DNA of 64,000 bases from Fibrobacter succinogenes. Its GTDB lineage: Bacteria > Fibrobacterota > Fibrobacteria > Fibrobacterales > Fibrobacteraceae. The translations under genes and the position numbers were made by a program. Location: assembly GCA_902791475.1 (NCBI GenBank), contig CADAWC010000015.1, forward strand, positions 1-64,000, written 5' to 3'. Positions 44,917 through 62,350 of this stretch are shown here, in pieces. The notes under the pieces were generated by a model. It was not told the DNA's origin. It did not search any database and saw nothing but the letters and a program-made list of their open reading frames with translations. The first letter of the stretch is position 1; the number at the start of each line of letters is the position of its first letter.

Positions 44917-46362
44917 TTAGTCGAGCTTGATCTTCTTGAGGCTCGTCATACCAGCGTTCTTGACGCGTACAACGTAGAGACCGTTCGGAACAGCCTTCAA
45001 GGAGACGTTCAACACTCCATTGGCGTGATTGTCGAACGACTTCAACACGCTACCCGTCATGGAAATCAAATCCACATGGACATTGCCATTGGCAGCAATT
45101 TGGAGCGTTCTACCGGCAAGCGTCATCTTCGGTGCGCTCGTCATTGCGGCGGTCAAGGCTGTCGTTCCGCTGCTGGAGCTGGATTCCGAATTCACAGAGC
45201 TCGAAGAAGTCGGCTGCGAAGGCGTTGCAGCGGCGAGGTTCGGCATGTTACCCGAAACGAGAAGTCCGTTCAAAAGCTTGAGAGACTGGTTGAAGTAGTT
45301 TTCGTCACCGAGAGCGACCGCTTCCTTCCAGTATTCATCGAGCTTTGCCTGATACTTGGCATCGGAGATAAGAGATGTCATGAGGGAGGTCACGAAGGTG
45401 CTGTTGTGATCGTTGCCAAGTTCGCCAGAAGCTCTGCGAACAGGGCCCTTCATGTTGGCGGCACTGACAGTAGAGACAAATTCAGCCATTTTCTTGTCGA
45501 GAGCAAGTGCACGCTTGTCGCCATGCCAGCAGACAGCCTTTGCATTACGCCACGGAGCGCGGGATGCATCGTAACTATAGTAGTCATCTTCACTCTTGCC
45601 GTTTTTATCAGTCCAGTCATCAATGAGACCAGTCGTAACTTCTGCAGAACTAGCTTCGTAAAGCTTCATGTTGGCATCGTAAGCGGTCTTGTTCCAGAAT
45701 TCCGCATTGTCTGTATCGATCAAGGCAAAAACCGGCATGTAGGCAGGGTCAAAATAGCCTGGGTTCTTGCGGTTGAAAGCAGCATCGCCCCACTTGTCGC
45801 CTGGCAAATGCAGACCGTTCGATTCAAATTCGGACTTTTTCATGGACTGGATGAGCTTTTTGGCATCTTCCTTGTACTTTTCGTCGCCAAACTGGTAGTA
45901 CGCCATTGCAAGGGCAGCAGCGGCATCGATATCGCCATCGAGTGCGGCACCGTTACCCGCATCCCACAACTGAGAAAGGTTACCGACCTTCCAAATCATG
46001 AGGCCGTTTTCGTTCATCATCTTCTTGTAGAAGTTCCAAATCTTATCGAATTGCGGCTGATAGCTTGTGGTGTTGTCGCTAAAGTAGACCATCAGGAGCA
46101 TGCCGTAGCCGACACCTTCCGAGAAATACGTATCGGATCCCGGATCAGAACGGACACCGGCCACATCGCCCTGTTCGTTGTACATGGCCTTCATCCAGTA
46201 GGCAAACTGGGACTTCAATTCTTCGGAGGCTTTAGCCTTGTCGCTCAAAAGCGTCGCATTTCCACCGTAATCCGACATCTGCGGGAACGGGAAATTGACC
46301 TTAGCCTGGGCTAGACCAAATGCAAACAGGCCAGCAAGACCCATTTTCACCAAACGATTCAT
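44917..46362 (-). CDS. Glycoside hydrolase family 8 endoglucanase-like enzyme
   Basis: A 481-aa secreted enzyme expected to cleave beta-1,4-glucan (or xylan/chitosan within GH8). The signal peptide is MNRLVKMGLAGLFAFGLAQA. The catalytic domain spans about 22-370. The proton donor is E82 in YFSEGVGYGML, and the second conserved acid is in LDGDIDAAAALAMAY (D142/D144). Arg/Trp-rich ASRAPWRNA is also typical. A short SSSSVNSESSSSSG linker precedes a type-A C-terminal domain (LQIAANGNVHVDLISMTGSVLKSF...GLYVVRVKNAG). I start at ATG 46362 with GGAG six bases upstream; the frame extends 21 codons more without a ribosome site. Together with the Trp-rich protein it may form a fibre-degrading set. Confidence 0.93.
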   Translation of the reverse strand: MNRLVKMGLAGLFAFGLAQAKVNFPFPQMSDYGGNATLLSDKAKASEELKSQFAYWMKAMYNEQGDVAGVRSDPGSDTYFSEGVGYGMLLMVYFSDNTTSYQPQFDKIWNFYKKMMNENGLMIWKVGNLSQLWDAGNGAALDGDIDAAAALAMAYYQFGDEKYKEDAKKLIQSMKKSEFESNGLHLPGDKWGDAAFNRKNPGYFDPAYMPVFALIDTDNAEFWNKTAYDANMKLYEASSAEVTTGLIDDWTDKNGKSEDDYYSYDASRAPWRNAKAVCWHGDKRALALDKKMAEFVSTVSAANMKGPVRRASGELGNDHNSTFVTSLMTSLISDAKYQAKLDEYWKEAVALGDENYFNQSLKLLNGLLVSGNMPNLAAATPSQPTSSSSVNSESSSSSGTTALTAAMTSAPKMTLAGRTLQIAANGNVHVDLISMTGSVLKSFDNHANGVLNVSLKAVPNGLYVVRVKNAGMTSLKKIKLD

Positions 46363-46450
46363 ACACAACTCCATTGCCCACACAGGGCCGTTAAATCTAT
46401 CTAAAAATAAATTATTAGCGACCAAATTTAAATTTTTTTAGTCTTACGTT

Positions 46451-48232
46451 TTAGTACTGTGTGCGGTCCATCACGACAAAAAGGGAATCGCGGTACGCAA
46501 CGTGCCATTTTTCGCTAGAATCAAGCGTTTCAATCAGTTTATCCCACCTGGCATAATAGCGGAGCGGTAGCACCACGCGGTCAATTTCCATCGAATCGGC
46601 ATCTGTCAAGAACAGCCGAGGCATGGTCGCATACGAAAGATAACGTTCAAAGAAATCCGCCGTTTTCAGGATAAAACGTCCATCGATGTATATCGAATCC
46701 AGCGGGTTCATAAAGGCCAAATAGCCTCCCGCGCGGTCGTCGTTGAAAAGCCTGCCCGGGTGCGGATTTTCCATCATCCAATGCGCAGCCCCCACAGGCA
46801 CGCGCTGGTAGGCAATCATGGAATCGTAAGATGAGAGCGATTTTCCCCAAAGCCCCAAAACAAAAGCCAATACGACGGCCGAAAGCAAAAAGTCCATCGT
46901 CATCAGCGGGGCAAAAGTCGTTTTTAACGATACCAAATCTGCACCTGTTTTCCGCAGCTTTTTAGCGAGGCGCTTTTTCAGCTGTAACTTGGCTCCCATT
47001 TTTTTCAAGTTTTCCACATGGCGGTTCTTGGCCTTCGATTTTGCAGCAGAACGTTGCAACGTAAAATGCACGAGGACCGCTAAAAATACCGGGAAAAAGA
47101 GGACAAAGTTACGTTCAGCGACGAGAGTCATAATCGCCGTGATAAAAAGCCAGGAGGGCTGCAATCGGCGACTAAAGATGGCTTCGATGCGCTCTTTGGC
47201 CTGCCATGAGAATTGCCACGACATATAAGGCGCAGGCTGCAAATACCACCGAACCACAGCAAGGATTATCCCACTCACACAAAGTCCAAGCATGAGTACT
47301 GACTGCAACACATTTTCACCATTCATCAAAAGCGTAATCGGCGAACGGTTCTCTGCAATTTCATTTGAAAAGACTATGGCCGAAGACGAAAGTCCTAGCA
47401 AACGATCCAGCAATTCGAACGGGTACGGAATCAGGTTAAAGCCATCACGATGGAACACCGGCACAATAAATAGCAGCACCATAAAAAGCGTCTGCAAAGC
47501 CAAAGACCTAAAGGGGATTCGCACGCCATTCCATTGACGAACTTTTCCAAACTTTCCCCAACGGCGATACCACAATCCGTACAAGAAAGATCCGTACGCA
47601 AAAATCAAGCCCAGAATGTAAAGCCCTTGGCATTTGCTCCAGAACCACTGGATAAAAAGAACTGCCAAGATTCCCCAAAGTTTATTGTAATCCGCCACGT
47701 AATGGAAGGCCCGGCGCATCATGCGGTGCGCGTTTTTAGGTTCTGCGCTATGAGTTTTTTTGCGATCTTCGCGCCATCCATAAAAAAGCCACGGCAACAC
47801 GTTCCAATAAATGCCAAGGAACAGCATGCTCAAAAGTACCGGGCGGATTTCAAACTGATAACGGAATACATACAGGAGAACGACAATCCCTGCAAATGTT
47901 ATCGAAGAAAACGTTTGACTTTTTTCATCGGTCTTTTCGTTACTTGACCAGCGGATCGAAGGCAATAAGAACAGCGCAAAGACTACGCCCCAAAGGAGCG
48001 CCTTAAACGAAACCAATAGCGGCGCCCCGCCTATGTTATAGACAAACGCTACAATTTGCTGGAAATATTCATGCACGTTGACGACAGGTTCACGCACTGG
48101 CGTCCAGGTCGTCACCCATTCACGCGCACAAGCCAAATGCCACCAAATGTCGGTGTCAGTCAGCGGGAAAATCGCAAAAAGCGAAACCGCGGCACATATA
48201 ATCGCTATCACTATGGATATTGGTAACTGCAT
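46451..48232 (-). CDS. Polytopic membrane protein, GT-C glycosyltransferase-like
   Basis: A 593-aa protein with ten or more membrane helices. The N-terminal loop TDTDIWWHLACAREWV is the D-x-D-x-W-W-H motif seen after helix 1 in membrane proteins of the GT-C type (lipid-linked sugar transferases). The extracytoplasmic C-terminal domain has RLFNDDRAGGYLAF and SIYIDGRFILKTADFFERYL, also usual for that group. The ATG overlaps the stop of the last TIGR02171 lipoprotein (TGATG), so they are translated together, which ties a possible glycan-transfer step to the lipoproteins. Not a firm family assignment. Confidence 0.65.
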   Translation of the reverse strand: MQLPISIVIAIICAAVSLFAIFPLTDTDIWWHLACAREWVTTWTPVREPVVNVHEYFQQIVAFVYNIGGAPLLVSFKALLWGVVFALFLLPSIRWSSNEKTDEKSQTFSSITFAGIVVLLYVFRYQFEIRPVLLSMLFLGIYWNVLPWLFYGWREDRKKTHSAEPKNAHRMMRRAFHYVADYNKLWGILAVLFIQWFWSKCQGLYILGLIFAYGSFLYGLWYRRWGKFGKVRQWNGVRIPFRSLALQTLFMVLLFIVPVFHRDGFNLIPYPFELLDRLLGLSSSAIVFSNEIAENRSPITLLMNGENVLQSVLMLGLCVSGIILAVVRWYLQPAPYMSWQFSWQAKERIEAIFSRRLQPSWLFITAIMTLVAERNFVLFFPVFLAVLVHFTLQRSAAKSKAKNRHVENLKKMGAKLQLKKRLAKKLRKTGADLVSLKTTFAPLMTMDFLLSAVVLAFVLGLWGKSLSSYDSMIAYQRVPVGAAHWMMENPHPGRLFNDDRAGGYLAFMNPLDSIYIDGRFILKTADFFERYLSYATMPRLFLTDADSMEIDRVVLPLRYYARWDKLIETLDSSEKWHVAYRDSLFVVMDRTQY

Positions 48233-51009
48233 CACTTCAACCTTTTCAACAAGGAATCTAGACGAGTCGAAACAACGATACTACCTTCGGAGCACAAATG
48301 GTCTTCATCAAAGAAGTCCTTGCTAGAATAGTCATGATGGCCATCATGGTATTCATCAAGCACTGTAAAATTCGGATACCTTTTCTCAAGTTCCTGAACA
48401 GCGTCCTGCATCTCCTTAGCCGCTTCGCGCGTAGGCCCATACCTACCCCACCCTTTCGTCTTGAGGAAGTTTGGCGACTGCGGGAAAACTATACCCACGA
48501 CATGGGCTCCATAATTTTGGGCAAGGTCCAGGATTTCCGCCAAACGCTGCAAGTTAAAGACAAAACCCGATTTATCCTGATCAAACCAGTTAGGATCATG
48601 GACGACATCAGGGACATCATCGCCCCACCCTTCCGACGGCTGTTTCATCAGGCCACGATGATAACCAAAAGCTTCGTACTCGTAATCGTTCAGGCTCATG
48701 GCATATTGTGATGCTTCATACATGTCGCCAAGTAGGCCATCTTTCCAGTATCCGTGATTTTTATCGTATTCATAGCCTGGGATATTCGCATTTGCAAACC
48801 AATCGTTCCAATTTTCACCTTTGACATACCAGCGGTCATAATCCAAAGCCAACACAACAACTTTCAGCTTGGGCATCAATGGCAAAATGTAGTTCTTGAC
48901 AAAGAAAAGCGTACTTTCCATATCCTGTGCGGAATAAGACATGTTTATGGCGAACATGGATTTAATGTATTCAGGATCGACGCCTGCAAAAGTTCTCGAA
49001 GAGCCGATGATTACAAGTTCCGTTGTATCGCGGTACTTCCAGAAAAGCTCCATCTTGGCCTTCATAATTCTTGATGCCACCCCGGTCGACAAGGTGATGT
49101 AGGCACAAGCGCTATCTAAATCCAGCGCTCCATATCTGTCATCTACAGCCGATGATTTTACCCACAAGCTCGGATGCCACAGTTCATCGCCTTCAGCAAG
49201 TTCAACAACGGAACTATCGGACAAGTTCACAAGAACAATCTTGGAATGAGCGCCATTTGCATTCGTAAGCGTTGCCACGGCGAGATTTTCACCACCCGTC
49301 GCCCATTCGCTATGATCAAAAGAAAATCCCTTCGGAGATGCAAAAGAGTTCACCAGCGTTCCGGTAGAATCCATCATGAGCAGGCGTTCATGCGTGATGT
49401 AATTTTCACCTACAAACTTTTGACCCGTTTCGCCAGCAAAGTCGAGGAACAGCGTACGCTTGCTACCGTCTTTCGCCAGAGACACATTGCAGGCCTGTTC
49501 GCCACCGTACCAAAGTGTATCGCGAGCGTTATCCTTAACTGTCGAACCCGATTTTGCAATGCGGGCACGCAGCAATCGAGCGCCCGTTACCGCAAGCGCA
49601 TTATCGTCACTAATGCCGCCGTGATAAGCGCCATCGAAAAGTTTTTCGGGCTTGCCAAACTTGCCATTGACTAGCTTTACCTGCCACGTGCTCGTCGCTG
49701 CAAAAGCGGCATCGTCTTTATTGTTGCCCGCATCCGTCACATAGACAATCGCCGTATCGCCATTGTCAAGCACGCGCCAACGCGGGATTGAAGCACTTTC
49801 GACATCGAGCTTCACGAGATTTGTTCCGTCCGCATTCAAGTCACGCACATAAAGGCTAGACTTGCCAGAAACGCCTTCGAGACGCGTACAGAACGCCACG
49901 CGCTTTCCGTCTGGCGAGATTTCAGGGTGATAAACTTCGATAGAATCTGCAATTTCTGTCACAGACAAAATACCGCTAGAATAATCGATGTAAGCGAGGT
50001 TCCCTGACACATCGTTACGGAAAGCAAGCTTCACCCTGTACGTTCCCGTCAACGAGCGCAATTTTGCAGAATTTGCAAGAGGCACAATCAAACTTGTCGC
50101 CGCCTTGCCATCGGCGCCCATCCAGGTCGCAGCGGGGATTGCCCCATAAGCCAAGCGAAATCCGACGTATTCGGCACGAGTGGAAGATGTTACAATATAG
50201 ACATCGCCTCGGCTGTACAAATTAATCGAATTCATGGAGTTGCGATAGCTACCGCCCTTGACAATGCGTTCCCCTAAGGAACCGCCATCAGGTGCGCCTG
50301 CAAAATTCGTCAAAGTCGTATCGCGGAAACTGCTAAACCAGTCGTTTACCCATTCCATCGCATTTCCAATCAGGTCACAAACGCGCTTGCTCGAATCTGT
50401 TTTGCTACAGACTTTGTGAACTTTGTAATCCGAGTTTTCTGCGGTCCATGCTTCAGAGAGGTTCCAATACGATTTTGCAACAAGCAACCATTCCGCTTCG
50501 GTCGGCAAGCGGTACGCATTTACTTCTGGACGGAAAACAAAGCCTTCAAGATTCTTGCAATGCTTATCGTTATCGAAAGACGCTTTGCTATAAGTGTAAG
50601 CCGTATCGAGCTTTTCGGCCTTGCTGCGTTCGTTAGCAAAGAGCACCGCATCGTAATACGTGAGGTCTGTCGCGGGCAAATCCTCATCGCATTCAAGCTT
50701 GAGCCCTGTCGAAGGTTTCATGAGCTTGTTAAACTCGCCACAGGTCACCTCGTGCTTCCCTATCGAGAAATCATAATCAAGCACGACATTCATTTGCGGG
50801 CGTTCGCTGAGTTTTGCAGAAGTATAATTCGTGCCAAGCGCTACAGTCTTATTCTCTGCAAAAACGCGAACCATTCCCACCAAAGAATCGTTCGAGACAA
50901 AATCAACAGCTTCGTCAGAGTGATTCCCAAGCGAATCATTCCCGGAATCAAAACATCCCAGGAAAGATATCATCAAGAGCAAATTCGCTATAGCAAACAG
51001 TTTTTTCAT
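48232..51009 (-). CDS. TIGR02171-family lipoprotein, paralogue 4 (FGE-like, propeller, SGNH-like)
   Basis: A 925-aa lipoprotein (lipobox SFLGC). Three domains can be seen. An FGE/SUMF1-like fold (about 45-290) has YRLPTEAEW, GNAMEWVNDW, IVKGGSYRN and YVGFRLAYG; the Cys pair that makes formylglycine is absent. A TolB/WD40-like propeller (about 325-640) has HPEISPDGKRVAFCTR, LYVRDLNADG and FDHSEWATGGENLAVATL. A C-terminal domain begins VIIGSSRT (S671) and ends DEDHLCSEG (H904), which fits an SGNH-type hydrolase fold. I recognise the whole as the Fibrobacter family TIGR02171, function unknown. It is the last of four tandem copies, three bases after its neighbour, and coupled to the GT-C-like gene. 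Confidence 0.85.
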   Translation of the reverse strand: MKKLFAIANLLLMISFLGCFDSGNDSLGNHSDEAVDFVSNDSLVGMVRVFAENKTVALGTNYTSAKLSERPQMNVVLDYDFSIGKHEVTCGEFNKLMKPSTGLKLECDEDLPATDLTYYDAVLFANERSKAEKLDTAYTYSKASFDNDKHCKNLEGFVFRPEVNAYRLPTEAEWLLVAKSYWNLSEAWTAENSDYKVHKVCSKTDSSKRVCDLIGNAMEWVNDWFSSFRDTTLTNFAGAPDGGSLGERIVKGGSYRNSMNSINLYSRGDVYIVTSSTRAEYVGFRLAYGAIPAATWMGADGKAATSLIVPLANSAKLRSLTGTYRVKLAFRNDVSGNLAYIDYSSGILSVTEIADSIEVYHPEISPDGKRVAFCTRLEGVSGKSSLYVRDLNADGTNLVKLDVESASIPRWRVLDNGDTAIVYVTDAGNNKDDAAFAATSTWQVKLVNGKFGKPEKLFDGAYHGGISDDNALAVTGARLLRARIAKSGSTVKDNARDTLWYGGEQACNVSLAKDGSKRTLFLDFAGETGQKFVGENYITHERLLMMDSTGTLVNSFASPKGFSFDHSEWATGGENLAVATLTNANGAHSKIVLVNLSDSSVVELAEGDELWHPSLWVKSSAVDDRYGALDLDSACAYITLSTGVASRIMKAKMELFWKYRDTTELVIIGSSRTFAGVDPEYIKSMFAINMSYSAQDMESTLFFVKNYILPLMPKLKVVVLALDYDRWYVKGENWNDWFANANIPGYEYDKNHGYWKDGLLGDMYEASQYAMSLNDYEYEAFGYHRGLMKQPSEGWGDDVPDVVHDPNWFDQDKSGFVFNLQRLAEILDLAQNYGAHVVGIVFPQSPNFLKTKGWGRYGPTREAAKEMQDAVQELEKRYPNFTVLDEYHDGHHDYSSKDFFDEDHLCSEGSIVVSTRLDSLLKRLK

Positions 51010-51012
51010 AGC

Positions 51013-53769
51013 TTACTTCAACGTTTTTAAGAGAGAATCTAGGCGCGAAGTCAGCTGTTCTGCACCCAAATAGCACAAATGGTCCTTATTCGTCGCCATT
51101 TCATCGGTATAATCGTGGTCGCCCATTTTATTTTCATCCATGAAAACGAAATGAGGGTATTCCTTTTCTAATTCCTGGATTTCTTTCAGCAATTTCGGTG
51201 CTTCGCTCCGGCGAATGCCATAACGCCCAAACGAACCCGTTTTTTTGAAATTCGGGTTCTGCGGGAACACAACGCCCACGACATAGACTCCATAATTTTC
51301 GGCATTCTGCAAGATATTTTTCAGATAATTAAAGCTAGAATAGAAATTGGCAGACGCATAATCCATCCAAGTGCTATCGTTATCTGCCGTAGGAGTTCCG
51401 CCCCATGTTCCGGATTCCCCATAGCTGAAACCGCGCGATTCCATAAGGACGTCATAGTACTCGTAAATACCCATGGATTCGCTCGTCAAGCTCGCCAACT
51501 GATTCGGGACACCATCTTTCCAGAAATCATGGTTCCGGTCATAGACATAACCCGGATAACTTTCATATTCCTTATTAAAGAAGTTGTACGTTTCCGTTTC
51601 ACCGTGGTACCACAAATCAATATCCAGCGATATAATAACGTACTTCAATTTTTTCACATGCGGGAATGCGTAATTAGTCAAGAGGTAATCCGAAACAGCC
51701 ACCATGTTCGGGACATTGGCAAGATTAATTGCAAAGAACTTGTCACTAAACACGGAGGGTGCTATGCCATCGAGCGGGCGTGAAGAACCCACAATGACCA
51801 CATTCGCCGTATCCATGTACTTCCACAGGAGTTCCATCTTGTAACGGAGAATGATAGCCGCTTCGCCACCCTGTTCTGTAAAATAGACACCGGCACTATC
51901 CGCATCGAGTTTGACATCAGAATCAGCGCCATCGGTTTTCTTGACCCACAGGCTCGGATGCCAAAGTTCTTCACCTTCGGCAAGTTCTACAATGGAGCTG
52001 TCATCAACATTTACAAGAACAATCTTGGTATGGGCGCCATTGGCATTCGTAAGCGTTGCGACAGCGAGATTTTCGCCACCAGTCGTCCATTCGCTATGGT
52101 CAAAGGTATAGCCTTTAGGGGCTGCAATCGAGTTCACAAGCTTTCCGCTGGAATCCGCCATGAACAAGCGTTCGTGCGTGCTATACTCCTTCCCCACAAA
52201 CTTCTTCCCCGTTTTGCCAGCAAAGTCGAGGAACAGCGTGCGCTTGCTACCGTCTTTGGAAAGAGATGCGTTGCAAGCCTGTTCGTCATTATACCAGACC
52301 GTATCGCGAGCCTTGCCCGTAACGGTCGAGCCCGATTTTGCAATGCGGGCACGCAACAAACGAGCTCCCGTCACCGCAAGCGTATTGTCTTCGCTGATGC
52401 CGCCGTGGTATGCGCCATCGAAAAGCTTTTCGGGCTTGCCAAACTTGCCCTTTGCAAATTTCACCTGCCACGTGCTCGTAGAAGCAAAAGCAGCATCATC
52501 TTTATTGTTGCCCGCATCCGTCACATAGACAATTGCCGTATCGCCGTTGTCAAGCACGCGCCAACGCGGAATGGCAGCACTTTCGACATCGAGCTTTACA
52601 AGATTCGAGCCATCAGCATTCAAATCGCGCACATAAAGGTCCGATTTTCCAGAAACGCCTTCGATACGTGTGCAGAATGCGACATGCTTTCCGTCAGGAG
52701 AAATTTCAGGATGGTAAACATCAATCGAATCGGCAATTTCTGTAACCGTCAAAATACCACTCAAGTAATCAATGTAAGCGAGATTGCCCGTCACATCGTT
52801 ACGGAACGCGAGCTTTACCTTGTACGTTCCCGTTTCAGAACGGATCTTTGCTGAATTTGCAAGCGGAACAATACGGTTTTTCGACGCCCTGCCATCCGAG
52901 CCCATCCACGTGGCCCCGGGGATTGCACCGAAAGCGAGGCGGAAGCCCACATAATCCGCACGAGTCGAAGATGTCACCGTGTAGATATCGCCACGGCTAT
53001 AAAGGTTGATCGATTCCGAAGAATTGCGATAGCTACCGCCCTTGACAACGCGTTCCCCCATGGAGCCACCATCAGGAGCCCCCACAAAGTTCGTCAAAGT
53101 CGTATCGCGGAAGCCACCGAGCCAGTCATTGACCCATTCCATGGCATTGCCAGCGATATCGCAAATTTGATTATCGAATTTTTCGTTGCTGCAAACTTTA
53201 TGGAGCTTGTAGTCCGAATTTTCGGCAGTCCAAGCTTCCGATGTATTCCAAAAAGCCATTGCCGCAAGCACCCATTCCGCTTCGGTCGGCAAGCGGTACG
53301 CATTCACGTCTGGATGGAACGCAAAACCTTCCATGTTCGTGCAATGTTTATCCTTATCAAAATACGCCTTGCTATAGGTATAAGCGGTATCGAATTTTTC
53401 GGCCTTGCTACGTTCATTGGCAAAGAGCACTGCATCGTAATACGTGATGTCTGTCGCAGGCAAGTCCTTGCTATCGCAATTGAGCTTAAGTCCTGTCGCA
53501 GGTTTCATCAAATCGTTGAACTCACCACAAGTGACCTCGTGCTTGCCTACAGAAAAACCATAATCCAGCACAACTTTCATCTGCGGACGTTCATTCGCTT
53601 TTGCTGTGGCGTCATTGGTCCCCAGTGTCACAACCGCATCATTCACAGAAAACCGCATCATCCCAGAAAGAGAATCGGCAACCACGTCCATAGAGCCTGC
53701 AGCAGAATCATGATCCGATTCGGTACAGGCATTCAACAAAACAACTAAAAGAACTAGCAAAAACTTCAT
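51013..53769 (-). CDS. TIGR02171-family lipoprotein, paralogue 3
   Basis: A 918-aa lipoprotein (MKFLLVLLVVLLNAC, lipobox LLNAC). It has the same three-domain layout and is the closest relative of paralogue 4: NAYRLPTEAEW, GNAMEWVNDW, VVKGGSYRN, HPEISPDGKHVAFCTR and FDHSEWTTGGENLAVATL are nearly identical. The C-terminal domain starts VVIVGSSRPLDGI and ends NKDHLCYLGAEQL, so the Asp three residues before the His is Asn here. The two copies differ most in the SGNH-like part. I start at ATG 53769, eight bases after AAGGA, rather than at ATG 53778. The 40-base gap from paralogue 2 is too short for a terminator. Confidence 0.85.
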   Translation of the reverse strand: MKFLLVLLVVLLNACTESDHDSAAGSMDVVADSLSGMMRFSVNDAVVTLGTNDATAKANERPQMKVVLDYGFSVGKHEVTCGEFNDLMKPATGLKLNCDSKDLPATDITYYDAVLFANERSKAEKFDTAYTYSKAYFDKDKHCTNMEGFAFHPDVNAYRLPTEAEWVLAAMAFWNTSEAWTAENSDYKLHKVCSNEKFDNQICDIAGNAMEWVNDWLGGFRDTTLTNFVGAPDGGSMGERVVKGGSYRNSSESINLYSRGDIYTVTSSTRADYVGFRLAFGAIPGATWMGSDGRASKNRIVPLANSAKIRSETGTYKVKLAFRNDVTGNLAYIDYLSGILTVTEIADSIDVYHPEISPDGKHVAFCTRIEGVSGKSDLYVRDLNADGSNLVKLDVESAAIPRWRVLDNGDTAIVYVTDAGNNKDDAAFASTSTWQVKFAKGKFGKPEKLFDGAYHGGISEDNTLAVTGARLLRARIAKSGSTVTGKARDTVWYNDEQACNASLSKDGSKRTLFLDFAGKTGKKFVGKEYSTHERLFMADSSGKLVNSIAAPKGYTFDHSEWTTGGENLAVATLTNANGAHTKIVLVNVDDSSIVELAEGEELWHPSLWVKKTDGADSDVKLDADSAGVYFTEQGGEAAIILRYKMELLWKYMDTANVVIVGSSRPLDGIAPSVFSDKFFAINLANVPNMVAVSDYLLTNYAFPHVKKLKYVIISLDIDLWYHGETETYNFFNKEYESYPGYVYDRNHDFWKDGVPNQLASLTSESMGIYEYYDVLMESRGFSYGESGTWGGTPTADNDSTWMDYASANFYSSFNYLKNILQNAENYGVYVVGVVFPQNPNFKKTGSFGRYGIRRSEAPKLLKEIQELEKEYPHFVFMDENKMGDHDYTDEMATNKDHLCYLGAEQLTSRLDSLLKTLK

Positions 53770-53809
53770 AAGAAACATCCTTTTTTACCAATCTATAAAA
53801 AAGTCTTCA

Positions 53810-56572
53810 TCATTCCAAAGTCTTAAGCAAAGAATCTATCCTATGCGTAAACACCTTTGCTCCGGCGGCGGCTAAATGGTCCACATTATACGCCATATTG
53901 TCTGTATAATCGTGATCTCCAAATTTATTTTCGTCAAAATACACGATATTATCGATTTTTTGCACCGAATCTAAAACGATTTTAGCGTAGCTTCTACGCG
54001 GTCCATAAACGCCAAAGGATCCGGTATTCTTATAGGCAGGATTTTGTGGGTAAACAGCCACGACCACTTTAAGCCCCTTCGCAAGAGCTGTTTTAATGAT
54101 CCAATGGAATGTCGCAAAATTTTCTTGATAAACCGGAGAATCCCAATTAAATGCAGCCGTATCATTTTGAATGTAAGGGACACCCCATTGTACACTCGCC
54201 ATCAAGAAATCTTCAAGATCATAAGGATGCAACAAAGCCGTTTCCGGGCGAGGAGTCACTTTCACAGCATCAACGAAATGTTCCGGCAAGCCATCGACCC
54301 AGAAATTGTGATTTTCATCGTACTTATAGCCTGGAACTTTATCATAAATCACGTTATACCAGGTTCCATAACCATCATACCACAAAAAGTCCGGAGACAT
54401 TTCAAGCACAAGGACTTTTAGATTTTTCAGATGGTTCAACACGTAATTTACAAACAAGTACTTGATACCTGTCATCTGCGCTGCAGAAAACGCCATGTTC
54501 AAGAGTTTATACGACGTGATTTCCTTTTCATACAAGGCAAGCATCGTTCTCGAAGAACCCAATGCCACAGCTGTAACGCTGTCGCGTCTTTCCCAAAAGT
54601 GTTCCATTTTCACGCGCAACTCGAGGGCGCTAAAGTAAGCACTCGAGAGGTAGTAAACACCTGCGCTATCCGTATCCAGTTCTTCGCTATCGTATTTGTT
54701 TCTAGAATGCCAAAAACACGGATGCCAAAGTTCATCGCCCTCAGCGATGATTTTCACAGAGCTATCGGCGAAATTCACCAAAGCGATTTTTTCGTGCACA
54801 CCGTTCACATTGACCAATGTCGCCACAGCCATGTTCGAGCCGCCCAGCACCCACTCCGTATGGTCAAAGGTATAGCCCTTTGGAGCTTCGACACTTTGAA
54901 TCAACTGGCCTTTAGAATTCATGACCAGGAGACGTTCGTGCGTACGGTAATTCTGCCCGACAAATTCTTGGCCTGTCTTGCCACCAAAATCAAGGAACAG
55001 CGTTCTATTGCTGCCATCATTGGCGAGAGAAACATTGCAAGCCTGTTCACCATTGTACCAAACAGAATCAACTCCATGGAATACCATTTTACTGCTTGTC
55101 GCCATCTTTGCGCGCAAAAGCCTTGCACCCGTAACGGCAAGTTGCTTATCGAGACTGACTCCGCCATGGTAAGCGCCATCAAGAATTTGCTTAGGAGTAC
55201 CAAATTGCCCATTTTTGAACGGGACCTGCCAAGTACTCGTCGATGCAAAAGCAGCATTATCCTTGTTGTTGCCCGCGCTCGTCACATACACAATCGACGT
55301 ATCGCCATTTTCCATCAATCGCCAACGCGGGATGACTGCATTTTCGACATTCAACTTGACCAGGCCCGAGCCTTCAGCATCTAGATTGCGCACATAAACG
55401 CTCGACGGTCCCGAAACGCCCTCGACGCCCGTGCAGAACGCAACGCGTTTGCCATCAGGAGAAATGTCAGGATGGTATGCATGTATAGTATCCTTGATTT
55501 CAACAACAGAATTCACACCAGTTCCAAAATCGACAAATGCCAAATTGCCCGACACTTCGTTGACGAAAGCCATCTTGGTTTCAAAAGTTCCCGTCAAATG
55601 CTTCATTTCAAAAGTAGCAGTTGTAACCTTTGCGACAGACTCCCTGACAGAACCACTTTCGTCAAGCCACGTTGCATTCGGGATTGCACCCAACGCCAAA
55701 CGGAAGCCAAGATATGCCCCCTTTGACGAAGAGGTCACCGTATAGATATCTCCACGACTGTACGTATTCATCTGCAAAGGTTCTGTACGATAGCTACCGC
55801 CTTTGACAACACGTTCTCCAAGACTTCCGCCATCGACGCCCCCTACAAAATTTAATACGGGCTCATCTTTGAAATACGTCAGCCAGTCATTGACCCATTC
55901 CAGCACATTACCGGCCATATCGTATACGCCGACATTGTTTGCAGGCGACGTCGCCACATCATGAAATCCATAGCCCGAATTTTCGCTATTCCAGCTTTTT
56001 CCCGGATTCCAGCCCAAGTTTGCGACCAAAACCCATTCCGCTTCTGTCGGCAAGCGATAGCCTGCCACCTTTTCGTGGAATACAAGCCCGGACAAATTAT
56101 CACAACTACCGGATTCATCAAACGTGGCGTTCGTATATGTATAGACTGTATCGAGATTTTGGGACTTGCTCAAAGCATTCGCATAAAGCACCGCATCATA
56201 ATAAGTAACATTGGTCACAGGGCTATTGTCATGGCACTGTCCTTCACATTCAGCACCCGCATTGGGGCGCAAAGCTTTATACTCCCCACGAGTCACTTCA
56301 TGTTCGCCAATGTAAAATTCGTACGAAAAGGTAACCTTCATTTGAGGCGTTTCGCTATTACGCACGCCTTTTGCATATGTTCCAAGCATCGTCGTTTTAT
56401 CAATGGAGGCAATTTTAACAAATCCGTCAAATGACGATTCTTTTTCCTCGACATCGATAACATCTTCCTTCACAGGGAACGGAGGATTTTCCTCTGTACA
56501 GGAGTTCAAAAATGCAAGAAGCAGTAGCAATAGAGAACTGTATTTCAAATTCTCTAGAAGTTTACTTTTCAT
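53810..56572 (-). CDS. TIGR02171-family lipoprotein, paralogue 2
   Basis: A 920-aa lipoprotein (LLLLLLAFLNSC, lipobox FLNSC). It is more diverged: FGE-like YRLPTEAEWVLVANLGWN, GNVLEWVNDW, VVKGGSYRTE; propeller HPDISPDGKRVAFCTG and FDHTEWVLGGSNMAVATL; C-terminal ALGSSRTMLAL and NVDHLAAAGAKVF. ATG 56572 overlaps the stop of paralogue 1 by four bases (ATGA) and follows AAGGGGAAAA, so the longer in-frame start upstream is not used. The SGNH-like domain lacks the Asp at -3 from His, as in paralogue 3. Confidence 0.85.
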   Translation of the reverse strand: MKSKLLENLKYSSLLLLLLAFLNSCTEENPPFPVKEDVIDVEEKESSFDGFVKIASIDKTTMLGTYAKGVRNSETPQMKVTFSYEFYIGEHEVTRGEYKALRPNAGAECEGQCHDNSPVTNVTYYDAVLYANALSKSQNLDTVYTYTNATFDESGSCDNLSGLVFHEKVAGYRLPTEAEWVLVANLGWNPGKSWNSENSGYGFHDVATSPANNVGVYDMAGNVLEWVNDWLTYFKDEPVLNFVGGVDGGSLGERVVKGGSYRTEPLQMNTYSRGDIYTVTSSSKGAYLGFRLALGAIPNATWLDESGSVRESVAKVTTATFEMKHLTGTFETKMAFVNEVSGNLAFVDFGTGVNSVVEIKDTIHAYHPDISPDGKRVAFCTGVEGVSGPSSVYVRNLDAEGSGLVKLNVENAVIPRWRLMENGDTSIVYVTSAGNNKDNAAFASTSTWQVPFKNGQFGTPKQILDGAYHGGVSLDKQLAVTGARLLRAKMATSSKMVFHGVDSVWYNGEQACNVSLANDGSNRTLFLDFGGKTGQEFVGQNYRTHERLLVMNSKGQLIQSVEAPKGYTFDHTEWVLGGSNMAVATLVNVNGVHEKIALVNFADSSVKIIAEGDELWHPCFWHSRNKYDSEELDTDSAGVYYLSSAYFSALELRVKMEHFWERRDSVTAVALGSSRTMLALYEKEITSYKLLNMAFSAAQMTGIKYLFVNYVLNHLKNLKVLVLEMSPDFLWYDGYGTWYNVIYDKVPGYKYDENHNFWVDGLPEHFVDAVKVTPRPETALLHPYDLEDFLMASVQWGVPYIQNDTAAFNWDSPVYQENFATFHWIIKTALAKGLKVVVAVYPQNPAYKNTGSFGVYGPRRSYAKIVLDSVQKIDNIVYFDENKFGDHDYTDNMAYNVDHLAAAGAKVFTHRIDSLLKTLE

Positions 56573-59415
56573 TTTTCCCCTTCCCAGGACAGCAACAATT
56601 CGTTCAGGCGCGATGTCAATTGGATTGCACCGGCATAGCACAAGTGGTCTTCATCAATCGCCATCGCATCGACGTAATCGTGTTCGCCCATTTTATTTTC
56701 GTCCATCAAGACAAAATTCGGATACTTCTTCTTTAAGCTTTCAAGTTCTGCAATCAACTTTTTGGCAGATGTACGTTTCATGCCATAACGACCAAACGAA
56801 TCTGATTCTCTATAAGCAGGGCTCTGCGGGAAAATAAGCCCCACCACACGAATATTGCGCTTTGCCGATTCTTCAATAATCGTGAGGAGAGCATCCATGC
56901 TATCGTCAACCAAATTCCAATGTTCATCGATGTTGTTGCGTTCAATTTCGGGTTCATCATTCCAGGAATTGCAAACCGCACTCGTATAGCGACCGCGATC
57001 CTTCATGTAATAGCTTTCATCAGATGAGCCTACAGAATTTTCCGTATGTTCGAGCAGGCCCTCCGGGTAACCGTCTTTCCAATAGTCGTGATTGGCATCG
57101 TACACATAACCCGGATAATTTACGAAAGTCGTATAGAACATATTATCACCATCCGGGCCATCAATTTTGTTCCAGAAATCGATATCCAGCGACACGACGA
57201 TATACTTGAGCTTTTTCATGTGGTTAAACACATAATGGTTCAAATAATCTCGGGTCATGTAAATGGAATTTGGAGTTTGTCCAAAGTTCACGGCAAAGAA
57301 CTGTTTACTGAACTGCGCGGGACTCACACCGAACATCGGCCTTGAAGAACCGAATATAGCCACATTCGCAGAATCGCGGTATTTCCAGAGGAGTTCCATC
57401 TTAAAGCGCATAATGACAGATTCCCACTTATCCGACGGATGCAAATAAATGCCCGCACTATCCGGATCCAGCTCGGAAGATTCTGGAATATAGACATCTT
57501 GGCGCCAAATGCTCGGGTGCCAAAGTTCATCGCCTTCCACCAAATCCAGGATTGAGCTATCCTTGACGTTTACAAGCACAATCTTTGTGTGGGCACCATT
57601 TGTATTTGCAAGAGTGGCGACAATATAACCGCCATCAGCTTCAGGGCTGTTAAAATTCAACGCCCACTCCACATGATCAAAAGTATATCCCCCCGGAGCA
57701 GCAATAGTCTTGATAAGACGCCCTGTACTATCGGCAATCAACAAACGTTCATGCGTTGCATAGCTTTCGCCCACAAAATCAGCCCCGGTCTTTCCGCCAA
57801 AATCAAGGAATGCGACACGCTTTGAACCATCATTGGCGAGAGACACATTACAAGCTTGTTCTCCGTTGTACCAAACTGTATCACGTCCATTGGCAAGAGA
57901 GCCTCCCTTCGCCACTCGAGCGCGCAACAAGCGAGCCCCCGTCACCGCAAGCGTATTGTCATCAGACACGCCACCATGATAAGCCCCATCAAAAAGCTTT
58001 ACTGGTGTACCAAAACGGCCTCCGGAGTACTTCACCTGCCATGTGCTTGTAGACTTAAACGAGGACGCATTCTTATTGTTGCCCGCATCGGACACATAGA
58101 CAAGCACCGTATCGCCATTTTCTAACACGCGCCAGCGCGGGATCGCAGCGTTCCCCTTAATTTTAAGCTTTATCGGTTTTGTTTTTGACCCTGTAATGGG
58201 GCGGATGTAGACATCAGAAGCTCCCGAGACGCCCTCCATCCCTGTGCAATACGCGACAAAGCGGCCATCAGGCGAAATATCCGGGTGATAATAATCAATC
58301 GTATCCGCAAGTTCCGAAACAGTCAAAGTTCCATTGACATAGTCAATATAAGCTATGTTGCCCGAATTATCGTTACGGAAGGCAAGCTTTGTTCGATACG
58401 TTCCCAAATTATTCTTGACCGCGGTCGCACCCGCCAATGGGATAATTCGGCTTTCGCGAGCGTTACCATCACGTCCCATCCAAACTGCATTGGGGATTTT
58501 TCCAAACGCCAAACGGAACCCGAGGTACTCCGATTTCGTTGCCGAAGTTACAATGTAAACATCGCCACGTCCATAAATCTTAATAGCCGAGGGCTCATTG
58601 CGATAGCTACCGCCCTTGATTACACGTTCTCCAACGGAACCGCCGTCAGGAGCCCCCACGTAGTTCGTAATCGTCGTGTCTTTAAAATAGCCTAGCCAAT
58701 CCGAGACCCACTCCTTGACATTCCCCGCCATATCGCAGAAATCACCATGCATACGCGGATACGAGCAAACTTCTTTAGGTTCAAAATCTGAATTTATAGA
58801 ATTCCATTCTTTAGAAGGTTCCCAATCGCGATCGGCGGCCAAAACCCATTCCGCTTCGGTAGGCATTCTGTACCCCTCGATTTCGGGATGAAACGCAAGC
58901 CCATCCATCGCAATGCAATTTCCAACAGCATCAAACGTTGTCGAAGTATAAGTGTAGACGGTATCATAGCCTTCGCGCTTACTACGTTCATTGGCAAAAA
59001 GCACAACATCGTAATAAGTCACCATCGTGACAGGCAACAAGTCCGAATCTTCTTTTTTGCAGCGGGAATCAAACGTTGTACCCATGACTCTCTTAAATTC
59101 TGCACAAGTGACTTCGTGCATGCCTATGGAAAAATCGTAATTCAAAGCCACACGAAACCTCGGGCGTTCATTCACCTTCGCCATCGTCGAATACGTGCCC
59201 AAATACGATAACGCACCGCCACTCGAATTTTTAATTTTCGATGCTCTTACAGCAATCAAGCCATCGTGAACGTTATCCGTTTCAACAGGGGCGTTCAGCC
59301 AGACATGTTCCCCTAAAAATGTATCGCAACCTAAAAGGATAAAAAGAACAAAAATACAGGGTACTAAAAAAAGCACCTTCATTAAAAAAGAGGAGTTATT
59401 AAAACGTGTCGACAT
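56569..59415 (-). CDS. TIGR02171-family lipoprotein, paralogue 1 (first of the operon)
   Basis: A 948-aa lipoprotein with a longer n-region (MSTRFNNSSFLMKV) and lipobox LLGC30. The start is supported by GAGGGGAA before ATG 59415. FGE-like part: YRMPTEAEWVLAADRDWEPS, GNVKEWVSDW, VIKGGSYRNEPS, YLGFRLAFG. Propeller: HPDISPDGRFVAYCTG and FDHVEWALN. SGNH-like part: VAIFGSSRPMFGV and DEDHLCYAGAIQL (DxxHLxxxG complete, as in paralogue 4). A repeated SlDiDfW-type segment (VVSLDIDFWNKID) and a KNxNHDYWKDG-type segment recur in all four. It heads the operon, 98 bases after the SirB1/transglutaminase-like gene. Confidence 0.85.
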   Translation of the reverse strand: MSTRFNNSSFLMKVLFLVPCIFVLFILLGCDTFLGEHVWLNAPVETDNVHDGLIAVRASKIKNSSGGALSYLGTYSTMAKVNERPRFRVALNYDFSIGMHEVTCAEFKRVMGTTFDSRCKKEDSDLLPVTMVTYYDVVLFANERSKREGYDTVYTYTSTTFDAVGNCIAMDGLAFHPEIEGYRMPTEAEWVLAADRDWEPSKEWNSINSDFEPKEVCSYPRMHGDFCDMAGNVKEWVSDWLGYFKDTTITNYVGAPDGGSVGERVIKGGSYRNEPSAIKIYGRGDVYIVTSATKSEYLGFRLAFGKIPNAVWMGRDGNARESRIIPLAGATAVKNNLGTYRTKLAFRNDNSGNIAYIDYVNGTLTVSELADTIDYYHPDISPDGRFVAYCTGMEGVSGASDVYIRPITGSKTKPIKLKIKGNAAIPRWRVLENGDTVLVYVSDAGNNKNASSFKSTSTWQVKYSGGRFGTPVKLFDGAYHGGVSDDNTLAVTGARLLRARVAKGGSLANGRDTVWYNGEQACNVSLANDGSKRVAFLDFGGKTGADFVGESYATHERLLIADSTGRLIKTIAAPGGYTFDHVEWALNFNSPEADGGYIVATLANTNGAHTKIVLVNVKDSSILDLVEGDELWHPSIWRQDVYIPESSELDPDSAGIYLHPSDKWESVIMRFKMELLWKYRDSANVAIFGSSRPMFGVSPAQFSKQFFAVNFGQTPNSIYMTRDYLNHYVFNHMKKLKYIVVSLDIDFWNKIDGPDGDNMFYTTFVNYPGYVYDANHDYWKDGYPEGLLEHTENSVGSSDESYYMKDRGRYTSAVCNSWNDEPEIERNNIDEHWNLVDDSMDALLTIIEESAKRNIRVVGLIFPQSPAYRESDSFGRYGMKRTSAKKLIAELESLKKKYPNFVLMDENKMGEHDYVDAMAIDEDHLCYAGAIQLTSRLNELLLSWEGEK

Positions 59416-59512: not shown

Positions 59513-60244
59513 CTACAAAGAATCCGGTAAACGGCTTTTGGCAATCGACTGATTTACGGTAATTCCCGGATATTCCGGAAAAAATTCTTCGGCCATGCGG
59601 TACCACGTGAGCGCTCGGGGGACATCGTTTTCAAGGTATAAATTGCCGATATCAAATGCGGCAAGTCCTACGAACTGCCGCGTTTCTAGCGGTTTAAATT
59701 CAAGACCGGTCCACCGGCCTTCTTTATATTTTTCGCGATATTCTTCATCGGTGTATGTAAAGCCACGACGGTTCGGTTCCAAATTCACGAAATTGTCCGA
59801 AGAGCCATAACGCAAAAAAACATGCCCCGGAAGGAGAATGCCATCGAGCTGCAAATGGCGCGATTCAGCCACCATGAGCGCAAGCCAAGAAATTCCCATA
59901 CAACCGGATTTTTTATTTGCAAGAACGCGGAGCGGGAGCACCGATTCTTTTGCAACAGCGGCCTCGCCCGCCCCGGCAAAATCGATATTCCAAAATTGCC
60001 AAAGCAGGTTTTTCAGAGATTGCAAAGTATCGTGATTCACTGCGACACTGCTATCAAAATAAGCGAGGCCTGCATGCCAATCGCTAATAGAATCAAGGCA
60101 ACCCGGCGCACGTTCTTCAAATACGCACGCCATTTCGCGATAGCTCATTTTATCGGTACGCCCGCTCCAAAGCAACAGCGAAAGCGCCGCTACAACAGCT
60201 ATAAAAAGTGCAGGCCAGAAGATTTTAGACAATAGACGAGACAT
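59513..60244 (-). CDS. SirB1/transglutaminase-core-2-like protein with signal anchor
   Basis: A 243-aa protein with an N-terminal membrane anchor (IFWPALFIAVVAALSLLLW). Its core matches the transglutaminase-like SirB1 family: NKKSGCMGISWLALMVAESRHLQL with Cys, then ILLPGHVFLRYG with His and NLEPNRRGF with Asn/Asp-like polar residue. The C-terminus (GLAAFDIGNLYLENDVPRALTWYRMAEEFFPEYPG) is a TPR-like unit that SirB1 proteins often have. Catalysis is possible (Cys-His), but the family has no settled function. It is just upstream of the TIGR02171 operon, same strand, and behind the AlgX/AlgJ-like lipoprotein gene, separated by a heptad array. Confidence 0.75.
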   Translation of the reverse strand: MSRLLSKIFWPALFIAVVAALSLLLWSGRTDKMSYREMACVFEERAPGCLDSISDWHAGLAYFDSSVAVNHDTLQSLKNLLWQFWNIDFAGAGEAAVAKESVLPLRVLANKKSGCMGISWLALMVAESRHLQLDGILLPGHVFLRYGSSDNFVNLEPNRRGFTYTDEEYREKYKEGRWTGLEFKPLETRQFVGLAAFDIGNLYLENDVPRALTWYRMAEEFFPEYPGITVNQSIAKSRLPDSL

Positions 60245-60269: not shown

Positions 60270-60366
60270 GGTTATAGGTTGTAGGGGATAGGAATTAGGT
60301 CAGTCAGGCGGCAAAGCCGCGATTATAAGAACCTAAAACCTAACACCTATTACCTAAGACCTTCTT
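60270..60366. repeat. Inverted pair of heptad arrays around a hairpin
   Basis: Left array: ggttata, ggttgta, ggggata, ggaatta, ggtcagt. Right array: cctaaaa, cctaaca, cctatta, cctaaga, ccttctt. Between them is GCGGC-AAA-GCCGC. The two arrays are roughly reverse complements, so the whole can fold as a long imperfect hairpin. The right array overlaps the stop codon of the lipoprotein gene at 60365 by two bases. Confidence 0.85.
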
Positions 60367-62320
60367 AAATTCCGTCCCATTCCATCGGACTTTGCCAGTA
60401 GTCGCGAGCCGTCATCATGTAAATCACGAGACGCTTGCTCAGCATGTCCTTTTTCATCTTCTTGAGGCGAGCGCGAACGCCAGGGCCACCGCCCCAGCTC
60501 GTAAGCACCTGTACGTCGAGCCCTGTTGCATAAGCAAGCAAGGAACCCGGACCACCGCTCTTCTGGTCCACAGATTCAAACACCCCCGTGAACGAGTCGC
60601 CCATCAAGAGGATTGGAGCATTTTTGCCACCCTTGTAAGCCTTGTCGCCCTTGTAGATTTTCATGCCCGCAAGAGTATCGGCGGCATACTTGGATTTTTC
60701 CTTATCCGGCAAATGAGCGACCAAGTCCCCTTCGCGGAGCACAACCGTATCCTTCATCACGAGGCTACCCGGCTGCGGATTAGCATCGGCATACCAGCTG
60801 TACTGCGTCACGCGAGAAGCAAGCTGTTCCATCGCGGCAAGCATGCCCGGTAATGCCCAGTGCGTATCGTAGCGCTGGTAACTGTAATGCGGAGCTTCAT
60901 CGCCACTGCGGGCCGCCATCAGAGACGGGTAAAGGTCTAGCACGTCGATCCCGGCGGCGAGCATTTCGCGGATAAATTCACGACCATTCACGTTCACGCA
61001 CAAGTCCGCAGGTGTACCCTTTACAAGCTTGTCTGCATAAATTTCTTCTTTCACAGGAACTGGGACCACAAGAAGCTGAACATTCATGGAATCCAAGTAC
61101 TGTTTGAGTTCAATCATTCTCGGGAGCGGATTGTGGAGGCTATCCTGACCGCTAATTTTATCTGCAACGAGGTAGTTTGCATTGCGGCGGAACCAAAGCA
61201 TTCCGTTATCCGCCCAGGCATTCTGTTCCTTCGGGAGCTTCGCCAGTTTTTTCTTGAGCGCTTCGCGGAACTTCTTTGTCGCAGGCGTTGCAGGGCAGCT
61301 ATTTTCCATAGCGGCAAGAGTTTCCAAGCGGGCATAAGAACTCGTATCGAGCGTGCGGTTCACCGGCACAACTTCGCCTGCAGCAGCCAAAGAATCGGCA
61401 ACAGCAGCGGCACGCAACTGTTCATCCGTCAAACGGAACGCCGGAACTTCAAAAGCAACCCACATGGGACTTCCCATCGGGTTTCCGCGCATCACCGCAA
61501 ACGGACGGTTCGCACTAGAGTTTTCCCAAATGGCACCTGGAGTATGTTGTTCCAAGTCCGTATTCAAAGTCGGGTACCAGTAAGACGAAAGCGTACGAGC
61601 CCAATTCATCGCCTCTTCACTGTTCATCTCGGCAGTCATGTAGTAGTTCAAAACTTCGAGAGACTCGCCACCCGAAACAACCTTGAGCTTACCATAGAAC
61701 GGAGCGCGGCCCGTCCATGCAGCAGGCATCACTTCGGCCCACCATTCAATCTTTCCCTGATTTTCACCCGTTCCCGGAATTCCCCACAAACGGCTTACCG
61801 TCTGGAAAGCGCGGAACACTTCGGGTTCATCCCACTTGACCGCTTCAATTTCGTTCAAAGCTTTTACAAGAGATTCATCGCCAGTCTGTGCATAGAGAAT
61901 CTTTGCAAACGGTTCCCAAGCGATGGGCGCTACCCCCGCAACAGCATCCGGCTCATCATCCGAAAGTGAATCGAGCATCGGGAACGGGAATTCTGCAAGC
62001 TTCGCATTCGCCATTTTGCCAGTGTAATTTTCAGGCTTTTCGTCCATACCCGCCAAGCGGATCGGATTCGAAAAATATGCCGCAAAATCAAGAGCGGCAA
62101 GCGTCGGCTTTTCGACAACGCGGACTTGCTTATCCCTGTCGAGCACGCGCATTTCAAAAACGGCGACCGGAGCGGCATAAACCGGAGTATGAGCTACCGG
62201 AGCCACAGATTCTGTAGCCAGCACGGAGGGATTGACAGACGGAGCCGCACAAGATGCAGCGAGGAACATGCCCGCAGAAAGCCCTGCGAGACCCAATAAA
62301 GAAAGAGGTAATTTTTTCAT
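60365..62320 (-). CDS. AlgX/AlgJ-like SGNH (DHHW) lipoprotein
   Basis: A 651-aa lipoprotein (lipobox LAASC). The C-terminal half is an AlgX/AlgJ-type SGNH domain: WFRRNANYLVADKISGQD, VVPVPVKEEIYADKLV, RYDTHWALPGML (Asp-His pair) and ILLMGDSFTGVFE (Ser), with TSWGGGPGVRARLKKM before the end. The N-terminal half (about 60-330) is of no recognised family, rich in Trp/Asp. Paralogue of the gene at 34258. It should act at the outer membrane on acylated surface polysaccharide. The start is ATG 62320 or GTG two codons earlier; no strong ribosome site is seen, only a heptad array farther upstream. Confidence 0.8.
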   Translation of the reverse strand: MKKLPLSLLGLAGLSAGMFLAASCAAPSVNPSVLATESVAPVAHTPVYAAPVAVFEMRVLDRDKQVRVVEKPTLAALDFAAYFSNPIRLAGMDEKPENYTGKMANAKLAEFPFPMLDSLSDDEPDAVAGVAPIAWEPFAKILYAQTGDESLVKALNEIEAVKWDEPEVFRAFQTVSRLWGIPGTGENQGKIEWWAEVMPAAWTGRAPFYGKLKVVSGGESLEVLNYYMTAEMNSEEAMNWARTLSSYWYPTLNTDLEQHTPGAIWENSSANRPFAVMRGNPMGSPMWVAFEVPAFRLTDEQLRAAAVADSLAAAGEVVPVNRTLDTSSYARLETLAAMENSCPATPATKKFREALKKKLAKLPKEQNAWADNGMLWFRRNANYLVADKISGQDSLHNPLPRMIELKQYLDSMNVQLLVVPVPVKEEIYADKLVKGTPADLCVNVNGREFIREMLAAGIDVLDLYPSLMAARSGDEAPHYSYQRYDTHWALPGMLAAMEQLASRVTQYSWYADANPQPGSLVMKDTVVLREGDLVAHLPDKEKSKYAADTLAGMKIYKGDKAYKGGKNAPILLMGDSFTGVFESVDQKSGGPGSLLAYATGLDVQVLTSWGGGPGVRARLKKMKKDMLSKRLVIYMMTARDYWQSPMEWDGI

Positions 62321-62350
62321 TTTCACAAAAGGAATAATAATAAATGTTGA

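Follow-up and report, generated by a model that had tools for sequence, protein, structure and literature searches.

Tandem TIGR02171 lipoproteins of Fibrobacter succinogenes combine a shared chassis with exchanged SGNH-fold heads in a hypervariable, putative surface-glycan acylation locus

In a 64,000-nucleotide stretch of Fibrobacter succinogenes DNA (the whole of which is referred to below as the window), four lipoproteins of the TIGR02171 family are encoded as a tandem array that is both mosaic and hypervariable, a combination that is new here, and the strongest feature of this array is a modular, recombining C-terminal "head" of SGNH fold. The gene order around the array is conserved across the Fibrobacteraceae, the head Ser and His are retained in every member aligned, the N-terminal FGE-like domain has lost its cysteines, chassis and heads are combined as a mosaic, the array has diverged far more than its surroundings, and one head has recently been exchanged with a relative. 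The reading preferred for these data, to which a probability of roughly one half is assigned, is that of a locus for surface-glycan acylation that has diversified as its SGNH heads were exchanged.

Results

Layout and conservation of the gene cluster

The window is part of contig 15 in a genome (G000) of 97 contigs and 3.86 Mb that is 95% complete, and the genes of the cluster are all found on its reverse strand. The first of them (60365-62326) encodes a 653-aa protein of the AlgX family, i.e., a circularly permuted SGNH protein (Pfam ALGX, PF16822, 8.8e-19), and is followed by a gene for a membrane-anchored, transglutaminase-like protein of 243 aa (59513-60244; Transglut_core2, PF13369, 7.9e-9). 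The four TIGR02171 genes come next: lipoprotein 1 (56569-59415; 948 aa, lipobox LLGC, 1178 bits, head at 56572-57489), lipoprotein 2 (53810-56572; 1332 bits, head at 53813-54697), lipoprotein 3 (51013-53778; 921 aa, 1333 bits, head at 51016-51930) and lipoprotein 4 (48232-51009; 925 aa, 1248 bits, head at 48235-49146). The open reading frame of lipoprotein 2 extends to 56641, and its first GTG would give 943 aa, whereas the ATG at 56572 gives about 920 aa. A gene for a polytopic, GT-C-like membrane protein of 594 aa (46451-48235) and one for a GH8 glycosidase with a type IX secretion system (T9SS) sorting tail (44917-46425; GH8 8.6e-28, TIGR04183 1.2e-5) complete the cluster.

The preliminary description of this DNA had proposed four tightly spaced tandem TIGR02171-type lipoproteins running into a membrane-protein gene, and this part of it stands: all four proteins match the family model over their full or nearly full length, far above its cut-off of 544 bits, an ATGA overlap joins lipoprotein genes 1 and 2, three bases separate 3 and 4, and the lipoprotein 4 gene ends within the beginning of the membrane-protein gene. 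Its delimitation of the set to these five genes was too narrow, as the operon begins further upstream, with the AlgX-family and transglutaminase-like genes, and takes in the downstream GH8 gene as well.

The order ALGX-TGL-(TIGR02171)1-5-GTC-(GH8) is conserved across the Fibrobacteraceae. A TIGR02171 gene is directly upstream of the GT-C gene in 45 of the 52 gene runs holding the latter, at a spacing of -17 to +36 bp in 43 of these 45, and the transglutaminase-like gene takes that place in three of the 52; GH8 is the last gene in 14 of the 48 runs with both TIGR02171 and GT-C genes (these counts include loci from some redundant genomes, and 44 groups are left after collapsing). At the level of the phylum, the GT-C gene is present in 97 of 168 genomes and a TIGR02171 match over the cut-off in 86. 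Outside the Fibrobacteraceae the order ALGX-TGL-GTC occurs with no intervening TIGR02171 gene (locus L146), so the array appears to be a later addition to an older three-gene core. Two loci from other families of the phylum, L144 and L146, hold the three genes together without TIGR02171.

Eight full-length TIGR02171 members are encoded in G000, namely the four described here, two singletons and one tandem pair. The other four (L102 to L105) are without AlgX-family or GT-C neighbors, and genes for an MFS transporter, a methyltransferase and a phosphopantetheinyl transferase are found near them.

The partner proteins of the array

In the AlgX-family protein, which scores 68.6 bits against PF16822 (gathering score 26.5), a DxH motif precedes the GxS motif, and DTHW followed by GDSFTGVF is shared by 97% or more of 33 relatives; judged by these motifs, the AlgX catalytic residues are kept intact. 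The transglutaminase-like protein likewise has its Cys, PGH and EPN (Cys, His, Asn) conserved. No MBOAT or other acyl donor gene is present in the cluster, the MBOAT genes of G000 being located on contigs 23 and 26. A second AlgX-family protein is encoded outside the operon, at 34258-35964 of the window (PF16822, 2.1e-28).

The membrane protein at 46451-48235 has no matching Pfam family. TDTD-WWH, an acidic motif in its first periplasmic loop, and NDDR-GG...DGR are invariant in 23 relatives, and its AlphaFold2 (AF2) model, of low confidence (pLDDT 68), has DPY19, OST/STT3 and ArnT, all of them GT-C proteins, as leading PDB matches in Foldseek (probability 0.96-1.00, TM-score 0.3), which suggests, at low confidence, the GT-C-like character that had been proposed for this protein.

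The SGNH-fold head

The C-terminal domain had been read as SGNH-type in the preliminary description, and structure prediction followed by fold comparison bears this out. The head of lipoprotein 3 (about 300 C-terminal residues) was modeled by AF2 from an alignment of 76 natural sequences with a pLDDT of 96.7 and a pTM of 0.94, and the Foldseek search with this model returned the SGNH acylhydrolases 2hsj, 4iyj, 3p94 and 4ppy at a probability of about 1.00, the best TM-score against the PDB being 0.68 (normalized by target length). Further fold matches include the peptidoglycan O-acetyltransferase PatB of N. gonorrhoeae (7trr) and the rhamnogalacturonan acetylesterase 1deo. The model places GSS right after the strand 44-47 and H284 ahead of the helix 287-303, as in non-permuted SGNH proteins. 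A profile of the head sequences matched nothing among PDB sequences, and the SGNH likeness is thus visible only by fold comparison; the Pfam matches of single members are weak, but DltD (matched by the most members), SGNH and DUF1574 are the top three and Lipase_GDSL_2 is also found, all four being families of SGNH type.

The Ser of GSS and the His of the HL motif, proposed earlier as the catalytic pair, are each conserved in 169 of 169 TIGR02171 sequences (143 non-redundant ones from the Fibrobacteraceae plus 26 mainly from other genera and families). In lipoprotein 4 they correspond to S671 (codon 48997-48999) and H904 (codon 48298-48300), and in its numbering G669, S671, N689, Y707, D749, W795, P843, G858, G890 and H904 are invariant in all 143 Fibrobacteraceae sequences. 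The remaining SGNH signatures are less regular. The Block II Gly is unconserved in the Fibrobacteraceae heads, with the Asn before that position present in 143 of 143, and N-x-x-x-x-G, containing this Gly, is found in many distant members; the Block III Asn is missing, a D-x-D-x-W region standing in its place. Three residues before the His there is an Asp in 77 sequences and an Asn in 87, and an Asp directly precedes the His in 142. With both its acid and its oxyanion residues non-canonical, the head should be called an SGNH-fold domain, not a canonical SGNH hydrolase. Enzymatic activity of the head is possible nonetheless, since no functional Block III Asn is present in the acyltransferases AlgX, PatB1 and XOAT1 either, and a Ser-His dyad is used by CE2 esterases (PMC9487903).

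The chassis: FGE-like domain and propeller

A Pfam FGE-sulfatase match is present at the N-terminus of all four lipoproteins, and in none of the 169 sequences is there a Cys in the columns aligned to the two catalytic FGE cysteines, in agreement with what had been noted earlier; by this criterion of sequence, the FGE fold is catalytically dead. For the middle domain, PD40 repeats are matched weakly in three of the four lipoproteins and in 31 of 36 members, and a profile matches TolB chains (E 0.0018), so the middle domain is best described, in line with the TolB/WD40-like propeller suggested before, as probably propeller-like (TolB/PD40). A lipobox was recognized in 152 of 217 long TIGR02171 members (by a simple pattern, and with start codons uncertain). 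One 636-aa paralog (L098, 1425-3335) is without the propeller, its FGE-like domain being joined straight to the SGNH head, and there is no N in its sequence.

Chassis/head mosaicism

The mosaic is already visible within the window: DNA identity between the genes for lipoproteins 3 and 4 drops from about 80% to about 50% past codon 620, and their products share 76% of residues in the FGE-like domain, 83% in the propeller and 39% in the head. Among 104 proteins from 44 operon groups (X residues left out), the median head identity of same-operon pairs with a chassis identity of at least 0.75 is 0.41 (n = 14), as opposed to 0.74 for cross-operon pairs at that level of chassis identity (n = 34; p = 0.001), and 13 of the 14 same-operon pairs combine chassis identities of 0.77-0.91 with head identities of 0.34-0.55; the contrast appears only from 0.75 up, head identity being alike in both kinds of pairs at a chassis threshold of 0.70 (p = 0.89). 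Of 92 proteins, 15 have their nearest chassis within their own operon and just one its nearest head, and for 53 the nearest chassis and nearest head neighbors differ. Paralogs in one operon may share their chassis (at up to 91%) yet bear old, distinct heads (about 40%).

Three chassis clades, picked after the identities had been seen, are rejected by the head data (AU p 1e-58, 0.002 and 2e-52). Four head groupings were tried against the chassis data alone and none is rejected (AU p 0.07-0.31); the incongruence is therefore carried by the head data, the identity pairs and the breakpoint. Heads that simply evolve fast do not explain the pattern, because ortholog-like pairs diverge equally in head and chassis (about 0.73 each). 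Most of the comparison genomes are metagenome assemblies. The same mosaic is seen in the near-complete relative G105 (a 2.3-Mb contig), so fragmentation of assemblies is not its cause.

Identical DNA runs of 132-167 bp in pairs of about 85-90% identity (L031, L063) fit gene conversion. A 661-bp identical tract between two paralogs of L090 was discarded as such a case, as it consists of a run of N in the assembly; the equal N runs (11840-12500 and 14544-15204) lie in the propellers of adjacent paralogs and are likely a gap that arose in assembly because the chassis DNA is near-identical. Avoidance of two heads of one type within an operon was also considered and is not seen (4 cases observed vs 4.1 expected by shuffling).

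Divergence of the array and a recent head exchange

Between G000 and G105, identity is mostly about 90-97% outside the array and falls to 78-84% from 46853 to about 59440, which delimits a hypervariable block. The difference recurs in five more locus pairs, with flanks at 89-97% and the array at 71-87% identity; a same-species locus pair is uniform at 97%, the array included. Such a large excess of interspecies variation in the array over the DNA around it would be expected of surface-varying genes. At four-fold sites, G000 and G105 are identical at 0.43-0.67 in the array, 0.93 in the lipoprotein 3 head and 0.88 in GH8; the low synonymous identity indicates that the array alleles are older than their flanks, and points to replacement and recombination, not only to selection at the protein level. 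A separate region of lowered identity is found at 42525-44471, where a 648-aa protein with Trp/Cys repeats of about 35 residues and long EESSSS/PESSSS linkers is encoded (75-84% to G105; its outer flank 94%).

Within the lipoprotein 3 gene, a tract of 886 bp (51950 to 51065, codons 610-905) differs from the G105 ortholog at only 4 of 886 bases (99.5% identity), whereas the rest of the gene is about 87% identical, with 52 differences in the 350 bases before the tract and strong divergence after it. The tract coincides with the SGNH head and is a recently exchanged head. Among eight relatives searched, a near-identical lipoprotein 3 head was found only in G105, and in a scan of 215 TIGR02171 members this was the sole clear recent exchange, with a milder one in L155/L157. 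Variation driven by a diversity-generating retroelement, a candidate prompted by the FGE match to TvpA, was rejected, since no RVT_1 (reverse transcriptase) match exists in the 95% complete G000 genome and the FGE domain is conserved.

Discussion

That an AlgX-family protein, a GT-C-like protein and SGNH-headed lipoproteins are so regularly encoded together suggests that a glycan or glycoconjugate outside the cytoplasm is glycosylated and acyl-modified. In such a scheme, the GT-C membrane glycosyltransferase would work on the periplasmic side and transfer a sugar from a lipid-linked donor, after which the AlgX-family protein and the SGNH-headed lipoproteins, presumably anchored in the outer membrane, would acylate this molecule (or remove acyl groups from it) at different positions. 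The dead FGE fold and the propeller would form a constant docking chassis, by analogy with PorK, whose Cys-less FGE fold serves as a docking hub (PMC12421860), and the head would be the exchangeable, specificity-bearing module; homologous recombination would keep the chassis of neighbors alike while swapping heads between copies and species, and so vary the surface chemistry. Most characterized SGNH families include carbohydrate-active enzymes (PMC9487903), in keeping with this scheme. One candidate substrate, by inference, is the LPS O-antigen, which differs between glucose and cellulose growth in F. succinogenes (PMC6851124). Points against this acylation-locus reading are the lack of an acyl donor gene in the cluster, the poor GT-C model, the four G000 members that stand without a GT-C gene and the indifference of operons to duplicate head types.

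Known systems resemble parts of this arrangement. All four window proteins belong, at full length, to the Fibrobacter family defined by the NCBIfam model TIGR02171, and neither an SGNH third domain nor chassis/head mosaicism appears in the name of that model or in the literature searched (few subscription papers were covered), which yielded nothing on TIGR02171. The likeness to the alginate O-acetyltransferases AlgX/AlgJ (PF16822) resides in the first gene of the cluster with its DxH and GDS motifs; the lipoprotein heads, in contrast, are unpermuted, with Ser 671 before His 904, while AlgX has its His before its Ser (PMC9487903), and an AlgI-type MBOAT is absent from the cluster. PatB, OatA and DltD acyltransferases share the non-permuted SGNH fold with the heads at about 12% identity, but the heads lack the Block III Asn, carry an insert of about 120 residues and are fused to the FGE-propeller chassis. 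O-antigen and capsule modification loci are alike in having a variable block between conserved flanks, genes of GT-C and O-acyltransferase type and allele exchange, but the varied part here is the putatively enzymatic head of a lipoprotein array, and the cluster shows no genes of Wzx/Wzy type. The T9SS ring lipoproteins PorK/GldK/GldJ also have a Cys-less FGE fold on a lipoprotein (PMC12421860), but the window proteins score far under the cut-offs of those families, have propeller and SGNH domains in addition, and are without a PorN-type partner in the cluster.

Of the other explanations, all of them unlikely, the one that survives best holds that the heads are surface-held esterases taking acetyl or other acyl groups off plant polysaccharides and thereby aiding fiber digestion. 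Plant cell walls are the habitat of Fibrobacter, acetylxylan and rhamnogalacturonan esterases of SGNH type abound (PMC9487903), with 1deo among the fold matches of the head, and a GH8 with a T9SS tail is often part of the cluster. Many cluster copies are, however, without GH8, no carbohydrate-binding module or hemicellulase is encoded in the cluster, its constant partners (AlgX-family and GT-C) are of the synthesis side, and hypervariability would be unusual for digestive enzymes.

Slightly less probable still is that the heads have no catalytic role and serve in recognition, on surface proteins (receptors or antigens) that vary, with recombination reflecting only the escape from phages or protozoa, which would agree with the hypervariability and head exchange as well as with the D/N at the catalytic acid position and the missing oxyanion Asn; set against this are the Ser, the His and about eight more head residues, which stay invariant in 143 of 143 sequences spanning many types of head and so speak for a chemical function, and the conserved coupling to AlgX-family and GT-C genes.

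The least probable explanation, in which the SGNH-headed lipoproteins, as relatives of PorK/GldK/GldJ, would belong to the T9SS or handle its cargo and fix exported proteins on the cell surface, draws on the similarity to GldK/PorK (E 5e-11 with the family profile and 5e-6 with PorK in the PDB), the T9SS tail of the adjacent GH8 and the T9SS-mediated cellulase attachment proposed for F. succinogenes (PMC6851124), but is opposed by GldK and GldJ scores (42.5 bits at best and 20) far under the cut-offs of 350 and 458 and by better FGE matches to TvpA (Treponema variable protein) and other FGE proteins. A core component of the T9SS would also be expected neither to be hypervariable nor to range from one to five copies, and it should not be missing from some genomes of the genus, as TIGR02171 is.

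Returning to acylation of a surface glycan, a wider proposal can be offered only tentatively, and with more doubt than the reading of this one locus: TIGR02171 arrays might constitute a modular surface-diversification system of the Fibrobacteraceae, in which conserved Cys-less FGE-propeller chassis carry SGNH acyltransferase heads that are swapped by domain-level recombination within and between species and work with a GT-C glycosyltransferase to alter cell-surface chemistry. TIGR02171 is a hitherto unexplained, expanded family of a major rumen fiber degrader, and the structural identity of its third domain together with the invariant Ser and His opens it to direct assay (e.g., with serine-directed probes or by acyl ester analysis). 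What recombination exchanges at the surface would, given the chassis/head mosaic and the hypervariable block, be an enzymatic domain and not a cytoplasmic glycan gene set, a point relevant to how Fibrobacter may vary its surface against phages and protozoa while its contact with cellulose is kept.
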